A stretch of DNA of 55,859 nucleotides from Alphaproteobacteria bacterium (GTDB lineage Bacteria > Pseudomonadota > Alphaproteobacteria > Micavibrionales > Micavibrionaceae), in contig WGMJ01000006.1 in the NCBI GenBank assembly GCA_016125135.1, positions 1 through 55,859 of the forward strand, in the 5' to 3' direction. The position numbers and the translations under genes are program-made. Positions 1 through 14,940 of this stretch are shown here, piece by piece. Numbering within the stretch: position 1 is the stretch's first letter; the number at the start of each line of letters is the position of its first letter. The notes under the pieces are model-generated. The model was not told the DNA's origin and made no database searches. It saw only the letters and a program-made list of their open reading frames with translations.

Positions 1-381
1 CATCACTCACGCGGCATGGCTGGATCAGGCTTGCGCCCATTGTCCAATATTCCTAACTGCTGCCTCCCGTAGGAGTCTGGACCGTGTCTCAGTTCCAGTG
101 TGGGGGATCATCCTCTGAGACCCCCTACTGATCGTCGCCTTGGTGAGCTTTTACCTCACCAACTAGCTAATCAGACGCGGGCTGATCCTTGGGCGATAAA
201 TCTTTGGACCGGAGTCATTATGCGGTATTAGCGTAAGTTTCCCTACGTTATTCCGCACCCAAGGGCACATTCCCACGCGTTACGCACCCGTGCGCCACTC
301 TCTATTGCTAGAGCGTTCGACTTGCATGTTTTAGGCCTGCCGCCAGCGTTCGTTCTGAGCCAGGATCAAACTCTTAAGTTT
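1..381 (-). rRNA. rrs: 16S ribosomal RNA, 5' part (truncated by window edge)
   Basis: Read on the minus strand this begins near 381 and contains the universal 5' block AGAGTTTGATCCTGGCTCAG (about 375-356) and the conserved ACTCCTACGGGAGGCAGCAG block close to the left edge. About the first 380 nt of the gene are present and the rest lies outside the window. The short helix around 300-320 and the block GGCGCACGGGTGCGTAACGCGT are typical of Alphaproteobacteria. The 5' end was placed by alignment to the start of known 16S genes and may be off by a few bases. Confidence 0.97.
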
Positions 382-6766: not shown

Positions 6767-7419
6767 GCACCTCTGAAAATTTCTGCAAAAAACTAGGCAT
6801 CTCTTTCAAGAGCCAATCACTGCTGGAGCAAGCGCTTACACACTCCTCACTTAAACAAGATGAGAATAACGAACGACTTGAATTTCTAGGGGACCGTGTT
6901 CTCTCGCTAGTACTTGCGCACGCACTTTTTACCCTGTTCAGGGATGAAAGCGAGGGGGAACTGGCAAAACGTCATGCGTCCCTTGTCCGTGGTGAGCTTT
7001 TAGCTGATATCGGCCGTGAAATCGGGCTGCCGGAAATTATAAAAATCGGGGGCGAAGCCTCCAACATCAATACCAATATCATTGCCGATGCTTTTGAGGC
7101 GCTTGTTGGCGCGCTTTATCTTGATAGTGGTTATCCGCCTTGCGAGAAACTGATTTTACAGCTTTGGGCAGAAAGACTGGCCGAGCACAACCCAATCCCT
7201 GAAGATCCGAAAACCAGCTTGCAGGAATGGGCGCAAAAACTAGGCAAGGGCTTGCCGCTTTACGAGATCACAAAACGCGAAGGCCCTGACCACGCCCCTG
7301 TTTTTACCATATCGGTTTCAGTTAAAGGCCTGCCTTCAATGCAGGGCATAGGCGCTTCGCGCAGGCTTGCTGAAAAAGAAGCCGCTAAGAATCTTTTGGC
7401 GCATATTCAGAAAAGCTGA
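6763..7419 (+). CDS. rnc: Ribonuclease III
   Basis: A 218-residue double-strand-specific endoribonuclease that processes rRNA precursors and some mRNAs. The signature NERLEFLGDRVL (36-47) carries catalytic Glu 40 and Asp 44. The second acidic site lies in ADAFEALVGALYLDSG. A double-stranded RNA-binding domain fills about 150-218 (DPKTSLQEWAQ to ASRRLAEKEAAKNLL). The start overlaps the lepB stop (ATGA) and the stop overlaps the era start (TGATG), so lepB, rnc and era are probably translated as a coupled set. Confidence 0.97.
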   Translation: MSTSENFCKKLGISFKSQSLLEQALTHSSLKQDENNERLEFLGDRVLSLVLAHALFTLFRDESEGELAKRHASLVRGELLADIGREIGLPEIIKIGGEASNINTNIIADAFEALVGALYLDSGYPPCEKLILQLWAERLAEHNPIPEDPKTSLQEWAQKLGKGLPLYEITKREGPDHAPVFTISVSVKGLPSMQGIGASRRLAEKEAAKNLLAHIQKS

Positions 7420-8315
7420 TGACAGATAAAAACCCACGCTATGGTCATGTTGCCGTGTTCGGCTTACCAAATGCTGGCAAGTCAACACTTGTAAACACGC
7501 TGGTGGGTGAAAAAGTCAGTATCGTTACACCAAAGGTGCAGACAACGCGAAACCGCATTACAGCCATTCTTACAGAAGGTAGAGCACAAATTGTCCTGAT
7601 CGATACGCCGGGCATTTTTGAGGGGCGCAACCAGTTTGATGCGCAAATGAGTGAAGCCGCGTGGCAATCGGTTGAGGATTGCGACTATGCACTGCTTATT
7701 GTTGACGCCGCGGGGCAAGACCCGCTTGAGCGGCACGAGAAACTCCTAAAACGCCTGCCCCGCAATAAAAGCACCCGCATTGCACTTGTCCTGAATAAAA
7801 TCGACAAGCTGGAAAAAGAGCGGGTCTTATCGCTTATTTCAGCGTTTACAGCACTTTATCCATTTGCCGATGTTTTTCCGCTTTCAGCCCGCAAGGCCGG
7901 TGATGTGCATGATTTGAAAAAAACGATCGCAATGCAAATTCCGGAAGGGCCGTGGGCTTATGATGAAGACCAGATCAGCACGCTCCCGCAGCGTTTTCTG
8001 GCAGCAGAGATAACGCGTGAAAAAATATTTCTGCAAACTTTTGCCGAAATCCCCTACGCAATCGCCGTTGAAACAGAGCTATGGGAAGAACGTGATGATA
8101 ACTCGCTTTTCCTACAGCAAGTCATTTATGTGGATAAAGAAAAATTAAAGTCAATTTTGCTCGGCGCACGTGGGCAGAAAATAAAAACGATTGGCCAATC
8201 ATCACGCATCGAGATGGCAAAAATATATGGCCGTCCCGTTCACCTCAAATTATTTGTGAAGGTGAACCCAAAGTGGCGTGATGACCCACAGTTTTTTCCC
8301 AACCGTTACGCATGA
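7419..8315 (+). CDS. era: GTPase Era, ribosome assembly
   Basis: A 298-residue GTPase that binds the 3' end of 16S rRNA and helps mature the 30S subunit. G1 is GLPNAGKST (15-23), G3 is DTPG (62-65) and G4 is NKID (126-129). The C-terminal KH domain is seen around 230-298, with the loop GARGQKIKTIG. Length is as usual. It shares bases with the rnc stop. Neighbouring rnc acts on the same rRNA precursor, and the pairing is conserved across bacteria. No terminator is visible before gcrA. Confidence 0.97.
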   Translation: MTDKNPRYGHVAVFGLPNAGKSTLVNTLVGEKVSIVTPKVQTTRNRITAILTEGRAQIVLIDTPGIFEGRNQFDAQMSEAAWQSVEDCDYALLIVDAAGQDPLERHEKLLKRLPRNKSTRIALVLNKIDKLEKERVLSLISAFTALYPFADVFPLSARKAGDVHDLKKTIAMQIPEGPWAYDEDQISTLPQRFLAAEITREKIFLQTFAEIPYAIAVETELWEERDDNSLFLQQVIYVDKEKLKSILLGARGQKIKTIGQSSRIEMAKIYGRPVHLKLFVKVNPKWRDDPQFFPNRYA

Positions 8316-8329
8316 TTTTTTCAAGCAAA

Positions 8330-8398
8330 GAATCAACAGTTTTATTTTGTGTGGATAAAAGCGCCCCCTGATTCGCGGGACTCTTTCGCCCCCGATTC
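8330..8398 (+). promoter_or_regulatory. gcrA control region: four GANTC sites and one DnaA box
   Basis: GANTC sites, the CcrM methylation target, lie at 8330-8334, 8370-8374, 8379-8383 and 8394-8398. A perfect DnaA box (TGTGGATAA, the complement of TTATCCACA) lies at 8350-8358. The cluster ends 46 bp before the gcrA ATG. In Caulobacter, DnaA activates gcrA and GcrA acts at methylated GANTC promoters, so this suggests the same cell-cycle wiring. I could not place the -35 and -10 boxes with confidence. Confidence 0.65.
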
Positions 8399-8444
8399 GC
8401 ACGTGTTACAGATGGGTCATTCAAGACATTTTGTGGGAGATAAC

Positions 8445-8963
8445 ATGAGTTGGACCGATGAACGTATTGCCCTTTTGAAAAAGCTTTGGGGCGAAGGCAA
8501 AACGGCCGCAGAAATTGCCAAAACACTGGGCGATGTTACCCGCAACGCTGTTATTGGTAAGGCACACCGCCTGAAACTGGCGAGCCGTATTTCACCGATA
8601 CAGCAGAATAAAAAGCCACGGGCTGAAAAAGTTGCAAAACTTGGCGCTAAAAAGCCCCGTGAACCGCGTCCGGTTTCTGCTCCGCGCATTAATATTGATG
8701 ATATCAAAATCCTGAACGGCACCGGCGTAACATTGCTTGAGCTAACAGAAAGCATGTGCCGTTGGCCCGTAGGTGACCCGAAGAGCAAAGATTTCCGTTA
8801 TTGCGGCTGTTCTTCTGTACCGGGCTTGCCATACTGCCCTGACCATGCACGCGCTGCATTCCAGCCGCAAGGCAAAGGCCGCTCGGTCTTTGTTAAAGAA
8901 GACAGTGGTGAAGTTGCAGATATTCTAAAAGACGATGTTCTTATGAAAGTAGCGAATTCCTGA
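8445..8963 (+). CDS. gcrA: Cell-cycle regulator GcrA
   Basis: A 172-residue protein, close to the length of Caulobacter GcrA. The N-terminal helix-turn-helix (1-48) reads MSWTDERIALLKKLWGEG and then NAVIGKAHRLKL, which is diagnostic of the family. A basic linker follows, then a C-terminal domain with conserved cysteines and CRWPVGDP, the part that contacts sigma-70 region 2 in Caulobacter. GcrA raises transcription at promoters carrying methylated GANTC sites. The ATG at 8445 has GGGAGA 5 nt upstream; the frame is open back to 8349, but that part does not match the family. Four GANTC sites lie in its own upstream region, suggesting self-regulation. Confidence 0.96.
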   Translation: MSWTDERIALLKKLWGEGKTAAEIAKTLGDVTRNAVIGKAHRLKLASRISPIQQNKKPRAEKVAKLGAKKPREPRPVSAPRINIDDIKILNGTGVTLLELTESMCRWPVGDPKSKDFRYCGCSSVPGLPYCPDHARAAFQPQGKGRSVFVKEDSGEVADILKDDVLMKVANS

Positions 8964-14834: not shown

Positions 14835-14940
14835 AATATAAAGCCGGAATAAAGATAAGAATCGCCCGAACGGACCTGTTTATTGTGCGTGTATTCGCTG
14901 ATTCTGTACAGATTTTCGTGACAAAAAGCCGTAAAAACAG

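Follow-up and report, generated by a model that had tools for sequence, protein, structure and literature searches.

The gcrA gene in the analysed stretch of DNA (the window, 55,859 bp in its whole length) is preceded by a dense group of GANTC motifs arranged around a DnaA box. This raises the question of whether the gene answers both to DnaA and to methylation by CcrM, with GcrA acting on its own promoter, and whether relatives share such an arrangement. The initial annotation had placed GANTC sites at 8330, 8370, 8379 and 8394 and a DnaA box at 8350-8358, with the cluster ending 46 bp before gcrA, and these positions proved exact (the last site occupies 8394-8398, and the ATG is at 8445). 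The features of the locus are listed below; the GANTC letters and the Shine-Dalgarno sequence were read directly, and the registers of the last three GANTC sites also draw on the register statistics described further on.

7419-8315, plus strand: era (GTPase Era), the upstream neighbour; NCBIfam PRK00089.1 and TIGR00436 above cutoff.
8129-8137, minus strand: second perfect DnaA box, within era, missing from the initial annotation; not conserved.
8330-8334, plus strand: GANTC 5' of the DnaA box, GAATC; its flanks match YGAKTCK on the other strand.
8350-8358, minus strand: perfect DnaA box, TGTGGATAA as written and TTATCCACA on the minus strand; its centre is at about -64/-65 from the inferred start.
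8370-8374, plus strand: GANTC in register -37, tGATTCg; matches YGAKTCK.
8379-8383, plus strand: GANTC in register -28, gGACTCt; does not match YGAKTCK; just 5' of the -35 position.
8394-8398, plus strand: GANTC in register -13, cGATTCg; matches YGAKTCK; between -35 and -10.
8404-8412, plus strand: inferred extended -10, TGT-TACAGA; the hexamer is 8407-8412, and its last base differs from the T of the family.
8435-8439, plus strand: likely Shine-Dalgarno sequence GGGAG.
8445-8963, plus strand: gcrA, 172 aa; Pfam PF07750, E 6.5e-43.

The era stop at 8315 and the gcrA ATG leave a gap of 129 bp. The gene order is spoT/relA-like, acpS (both assigned by eye), lepB, rnc, era, gcrA and a cold-shock-like protein, which has two cold-shock matches, both under the model cutoffs. 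The naming of gcrA was borne out: its product scores 147 bits with the Pfam GcrA model, above cutoff, and 141 bits with the NCBIfam GcrA equivalog, under the strict cutoff of 280, and it can be aligned with the GcrA of PDB 7ye1.

As contig 8, the window belongs to a genome of 2.23 Mb in 23 contigs, which has one GcrA match. The genome is apparently of Micavibrionaceae (Alphaproteobacteria); in the NCBI tree, Micavibrio is still placed in Bdellovibrionota. The initial annotation had made its proposal dependent on a CcrM homologue, and one is present in this genome: a single strong match, with 607 bits for NF050803 (under the strict cutoff of 830) and with PF01555 and a RAMA domain over the Pfam cutoffs. 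The genome also encodes DnaA (two matches). Two full dnaA-dnaN pairs are found in the assembly, on C12 (L279) and on C20 (L280, C20:38752-41955). The C20 pieces have a GC content of 0.518 and a tetranucleotide fit of 0.763, which is the low edge of the 9-kb pieces of the main contigs; the C20 pair is likely, but not proven, to be a binning contaminant. Two full DnaA matches are likewise present in the relative G032. Contamination was also considered for the window contig and rejected, as its composition matches that of the large contigs and gcrA gave one match. A partial 16S rRNA gene lies at the contig edge (window positions 1-381, minus strand).

The GANTC motif was expected in the initial annotation about once per 256 bp. 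This overstates the background, since the window holds 84 sites (one per 665 bp) against 159 expected from dinucleotide shuffles, and the cluster is thus rarer than was supposed; in a 456-kb sample of the genome (20 stretches from larger contigs plus the window) the density is one per 735 bp. GANTC depletion has been reported for CcrM-bearing alphaproteobacteria in general, according to the available part of the source (PMC3973325). The cluster is the only one in the window with four sites in 69 bp. When 84 sites are placed randomly in the window, any such cluster arises with a probability of 0.011, and Markov simulations, which do not include the depletion, produced three clusters per 40 window lengths. 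The gap contains four sites against 0.19 expected; its Poisson probability is 5e-5 for the gap alone, a gap picked after the cluster had been seen. The 456-kb sample has four other places with at least three GANTC in 69 bp, the densest being just 5' of ccrM. The claim of no more than one GANTC in any other intergenic region nearly stands, but the gap 14835-14940 has two; this count covers the 24 gaps longer than 20 bp from a crude ORF caller, which began gcrA at the GTG at 8349 and so left the era-gcrA gap uncounted.

To compare the locus, 58 genomes were searched, including that of the window; a GcrA match was found in 56 of them (none in G014 and G045) and a CcrM match in 57, a few being partial (e.g., G052). 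The gcrA upstream regions were taken from 55 of the 56 genomes (G054 was left out) together with named loci, and duplicates were removed by GcrA protein. The rows L076 and L109 (short upstream), L130 and L131 (partial) were dropped, as was the distant L103, though TGTGGACAA is present there at spacing 43. The working set contains 66 promoters: 36 from the family of the window (f1), 23 from further named Micavibrio-like loci, and five and two from f7 and f2, respectively, f2 to f7 being the other families of the order.

The DnaA box is found in 66 of the 66 promoters, the window included (58 perfect, eight with one mismatch), for a set whose entry required a near-perfect box in the same orientation, and no f1, f2, f7 or named row failed to enter. 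With at most one mismatch allowed, it is present in 36/36 f1 genomes having gcrA. The 66 rows were scanned in a single orientation; of the order's rows, 55 were scanned in both, and there f1, f2 and f7 show only the promoter box, and no box was found in the 12 rows of the families f3, f4, f5 and f6. Beyond 300 bp 5' of gcrA, the 66 loci contain one perfect box in 198 kb. In the region 10-600 bp 5' of the promoter box, none of the other 65 rows has a perfect box except L020, where it is in a different place; the box inside era is probably fortuitous. In a class-wide sample, 125 genomes with a GcrA match gave 70 loci, 13 of them without a readable start. Among the remaining 57, 16 (some of which are close pairs) have a perfect box no more than 300 bp from gcrA, against 0.12 expected; a few of these have a similar spacing, and the others differ in orientation and distance.

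The position of the box relative to the promoter is also conserved. A -10 caller that ignored both GANTC and -35 was run over 35-75 nt beyond the box; in L052, where it had picked elsewhere, the -10 was placed by hand at TGTTAAAGT. The spacing between the box and the extended -10 (TGNTANNNT) is 43-46 nt in 62 of the 66 rows (43 in three, 44 in 30, 45 in 23, 46 in six). Spacings of 34 and 35 occur in one row each, these being two sister genomes about one helical turn shorter; the two rows with 69 belong to f2 and have a perfect box there plus a second box, TGTGGAAAA, at 44. On shuffled downstream sequence the caller returned 43-46 nt in 12% of cases, and a score of 9 was reached by 5% of the shuffles versus 64/66 promoters. 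Of eight DnaA boxes examined in the genome (L062-L069, out of 19 hits genome-wide), the best -10-like match falls at 43-46 nt for the gcrA box only. Thus, the suggestion that the arrangement might be lineage-specific gives way to a geometry fixed across the family, and by these sequence comparisons the gcrA promoter is a fixed-geometry sigma70-like promoter. The window departs from the family consensus in its -10 (TACAGA) and forms a long branch on the tree. The transcription start is inferred at about 8419, which puts the box near -64, a usual position for a class-I activator.

The GANTC sites also keep to particular places. Registers give the position of the GANTC start, counted from the initial base of the -10 hexamer. 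Over the 66 rows, the sites pile up at -13..-15 (38), -28/-29 (25) and -37..-39 (16), and the window occupies all three registers (-13, -28 and -37); given the inferred -10, its site at 8394 is inside the -35/-10 region, and those at 8379 and 8370 are just 5' of it. Between the box and the -10 there are 91 sites versus 4.6 expected from the locus flanks, and in the 64 bp 5' of the box 43 versus 6.3; the leader is near background (13 versus 8.1). The -13..-15 register is filled in 38/66 rows, with a mean of 1.4 and a maximum of five in 300 shuffles. The consensus YGAKTCK, hypothesized for GcrA-activated genes in the accessible part of PMC7987155, is matched by three of the four GANTC sites of the window. 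It is matched by 25/38 sites at -13..-15 and 16/16 at -37..-39, versus 36/322 (11%) in the flanks; at -28/-29 there is no preference (4/25). After thinning of near-identical rows, the counts are 17/27 and 10/10 (Fisher about 3e-9 and 1e-9), and 4/15 at -28/-29 (p 0.09). The bias at two registers favours GcrA itself as the reader of the -37..-39 and -13..-15 registers of its own promoter. A search for a GcrA regulon in the genome of the window by GANTC-N5-7-TGNTANNNT was abandoned as too weak (17 hits versus 9 in the reversed control); the gcrA of the window fails this pattern owing to the final A of its -10. One hit (L133) is followed, 179 nt downstream, by the gene for a ribonucleotide reductase small subunit.

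The distribution of the -13..-15 site was examined on a quick IQ-TREE of Era and GcrA (66 rows, six of them without Era; provisional root). The site is present in 37/42 rows on one side, f7 and f2 included, and in 1/24 on the other (SH-aLRT 96), which takes at least six changes on the tree; among the f1 genomes with gcrA it is found in 18/36. From this distribution we infer one main loss plus sporadic losses. As f7 belongs to the side with the site, its presence is suggested to be ancestral, given that root. The 24-row clade is poor in GANTC despite a CcrM match in 57/58 genomes searched. Thus, alignment of the upstream regions of relatives, proposed earlier as a check, upheld the DnaA box in all 66 promoters and the GANTC part incompletely, as that part is mostly absent from the 24-row clade. 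TTGGCA-like -35 elements are mainly in the same clade: TTG[AG]C at a spacer of 17/18 occurs in 2/38 rows with the -13..-15 site and in 11/28 without it (Fisher p = 0.001, with relatedness ignored). A repeated, independent exchange between this site and a consensus -35 was rejected; it was mainly one clade-level event, and an independent-pairs test (four pairs) gave no support.

What is observed are the sites, how they are spaced and conserved, and that CcrM-like, GcrA and DnaA genes are present. From these we infer protein binding, methylation, a start site and a sign of regulation, and arrive at the following reading, to which we give a probability of about 0.6: DnaA in a class-I position would activate gcrA, and both GcrA and CcrM methylation would act back on the same promoter. 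The gene would be transcribed from a sigma70 promoter whose -10 is extended and whose -35 is poor. DnaA, bound near -64 to the single box and always on the same helical face, may work like a class-I activator, so that the start of replication would trigger gcrA. In its own promoter, GcrA would read CcrM-methylated GANTC in two registers, -37 and -13/-15; it would most likely do so as a sigma70 cofactor, and the outcome would be positive feedback. Passage of the fork would leave the GANTC sites hemimethylated and retune gcrA. A GANTC between -35 and -10, together with the poor -35 and the extended -10, fits a GcrA-type methylated promoter.

The components of this reading are known from other alphaproteobacteria; what follows is limited to the available portions of the sources cited. 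In Caulobacter, DnaA activates the gcrA promoter, which contains one DnaA box (PMC3193534), although a 2010 comparison found no significant DnaA motif there by its matrix and no conservation across alphaproteobacteria (PMC2877005). The present locus resembles that of Caulobacter crescentus in having one DnaA box in the gcrA promoter, in the proposed DnaA activation and in the GcrA/CcrM circuit (PMC3193534, PMC4287350), the comparison being by description. GcrA prefers methylated GANTC and recruits the polymerase (PMC3667746); it is a sigma70 cofactor that binds sigma domain 2 and speeds open-complex formation at methylated promoters (PMC7403470). GANTC between -10 and -35 is associated in Caulobacter with start sites active at 40-60 min, and a GANTC within 50 bp is found at only 31% of GcrA-bound cell-cycle start sites (PMC4287350). 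Caulobacter mipZ, podJ and ctrA P1 likewise have GANTC near the promoter and are bound by GcrA with the aid of CcrM methylation (PMC3667746); unlike them, the putative target here is gcrA itself, with a DnaA box at a fixed position. Agrobacterium tumefaciens is similar in having a GANTC cluster, six sites in 250 bp, 5' of gcrA and an effect of methylation on this gene. Its promoter differs in being less active when methylated, even in E. coli without alphaproteobacterial regulators, and its authors propose that gcrA is activated on hemimethylation; a DnaA box is not mentioned in the available text, nor are registers relative to -10 given there (PMC11514494). Since methylation represses that promoter, its effect here may be either activating or repressing.

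The Agrobacterium result bears on the principal competitor, a methylation gate working without GcrA. Full methylation would hinder sigma70, hemimethylation after the fork would release a burst of gcrA expression, and DnaA would remain the activator. The weaker activity of the methylated A. tumefaciens promoter, also in E. coli (PMC11514494), agrees with such a gate, and so does the flanking of the -35 position by the -28/-29 and -13/-15 sites, the former having no YGAKTCK preference. We nevertheless regard it as unlikely, because a gate blind to sequence predicts no bias toward the GcrA consensus, which is seen at two of the three registers (25/38 and 16/16 versus 11%), and GcrA is itself a sigma70 cofactor in the accessible description (PMC7403470). 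The poor fit of the -28/-29 register to YGAKTCK counts against feedback by GcrA, as does the occurrence of YGAKTCK at ccrM, where it is moderately enriched (66/215) and therefore not unique to gcrA. Moreover, the -13..-15 site is missing in 28/66 rows, and feedback is thus not needed throughout the family. Further points against the preferred reading are the lower activity of the methylated A. tumefaciens promoter, the atypical -10 and long branch of the window, the low share (31%) of GcrA-bound Caulobacter start sites with a nearby GANTC, and the weak enrichment of GANTC-N5-7-TGNTANNNT in this genome.

In another reading, DnaA activation is the sole working input, and the GANTC sites mark an older control that sees little use and is being lost by drift. 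It would account for a box in every f1 genome with gcrA when half of them have the -13..-15 site, and for the TTGGCA-like -35 elements that stand in the GANTC-poor clade instead. Drift would not, however, keep this site in 37/42 rows over long branches with its register and flanks conserved, and we find the reading improbable. Chance clustering, or mere kinship of the compared promoters, is the least credible explanation by far: the 0.011 for the window alone is modest, and ccrM aside the sample has three further places with three sites in 69 bp, but the same registers recur in numerous diverged genera, the sequence between them being little conserved, and their pattern survives the thinning of near-identical rows. 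Feedback by GcrA under DnaA activation is thus kept as the preferred reading.

The ccrM promoters give another view of methylation in these bacteria. The regions upstream of ccrM (up to 300 bp) in 41 genomes add up to about 12 kb and contain 215 GANTC, on average 5.2 per region, with at least two in 40 of the 41 and none in one; several of the starts were estimated, and one region is only 37 bp. In the genome of the window the cluster is at L229:10209-10266 (C17:110209-110266), and those of the relatives are in L239-L278. The ccrM upstream regions are GANTC-rich also in genomes with a GANTC-less gcrA, and GANTC numbers at the two genes show no correlation (Spearman 0.13, p 0.41, 40 genomes). 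Judging by these motifs, methylation control of ccrM looks family-wide and that of gcrA does not. A CtrA site (TTAA-N7-TTAA) within 300 bp 5' of the gene was found in 1/102 rows for gcrA (G034) and in 1/41 for ccrM, the latter being the genome of the window.

Taken across the family, gcrA of Micavibrionaceae may have a fixed two-input promoter, with class-I DnaA and GcrA feedback through methylated GANTC at two registers, from which one large clade dropped the methylation input and gained a consensus-like -35, with CcrM itself and the abundant GANTC of the ccrM promoter retained; we offer this fuller picture tentatively. The separate ingredients are all in print, and the fixed layout with its partial loss in one branch looks new. 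In the open-licence literature searched, we found no description of the fixed geometry, the register-specific GcrA consensus or the clade-level loss, and no statement of direct GcrA autoregulation, which is a testable claim. The 2010 comparison, in its available part, came to the conclusion that conservation of the DnaA-GcrA-CtrA circuit does not extend to all alphaproteobacteria (PMC2877005); in the present set, a DnaA box precedes gcrA in every compared promoter of f1, f2 and f7, and its distance is mostly fixed. A natural test of the contribution of methylation to the cell-cycle circuit is available in the clade whose gcrA has lost GANTC.

In the sister family f3, the GANTC at gcrA adjoins the extended -10 in 5/5 genomes from three genera (G038, G044, G050, G053, G056; loci L043, L038, L053, L050, L054), as in the window. 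The f3 promoters differ in that GANTC starts at -10 and not at -13..-15, and no DnaA box was found in them.

The gcrA leader of the window is only about 26 nt long and has no hairpin. Many relatives have a leader of 60-90 nt with a short hairpin (e.g., L006, L009, L013, L017, L025 and L093); no Rfam match at the gathering threshold was obtained for the seven relative loci tried. The hairpin loop is often TTAG-like (of the CAGGC-GCTTAG-CCTG type), and the mean folding z-score over 59 leaders is -1.3.
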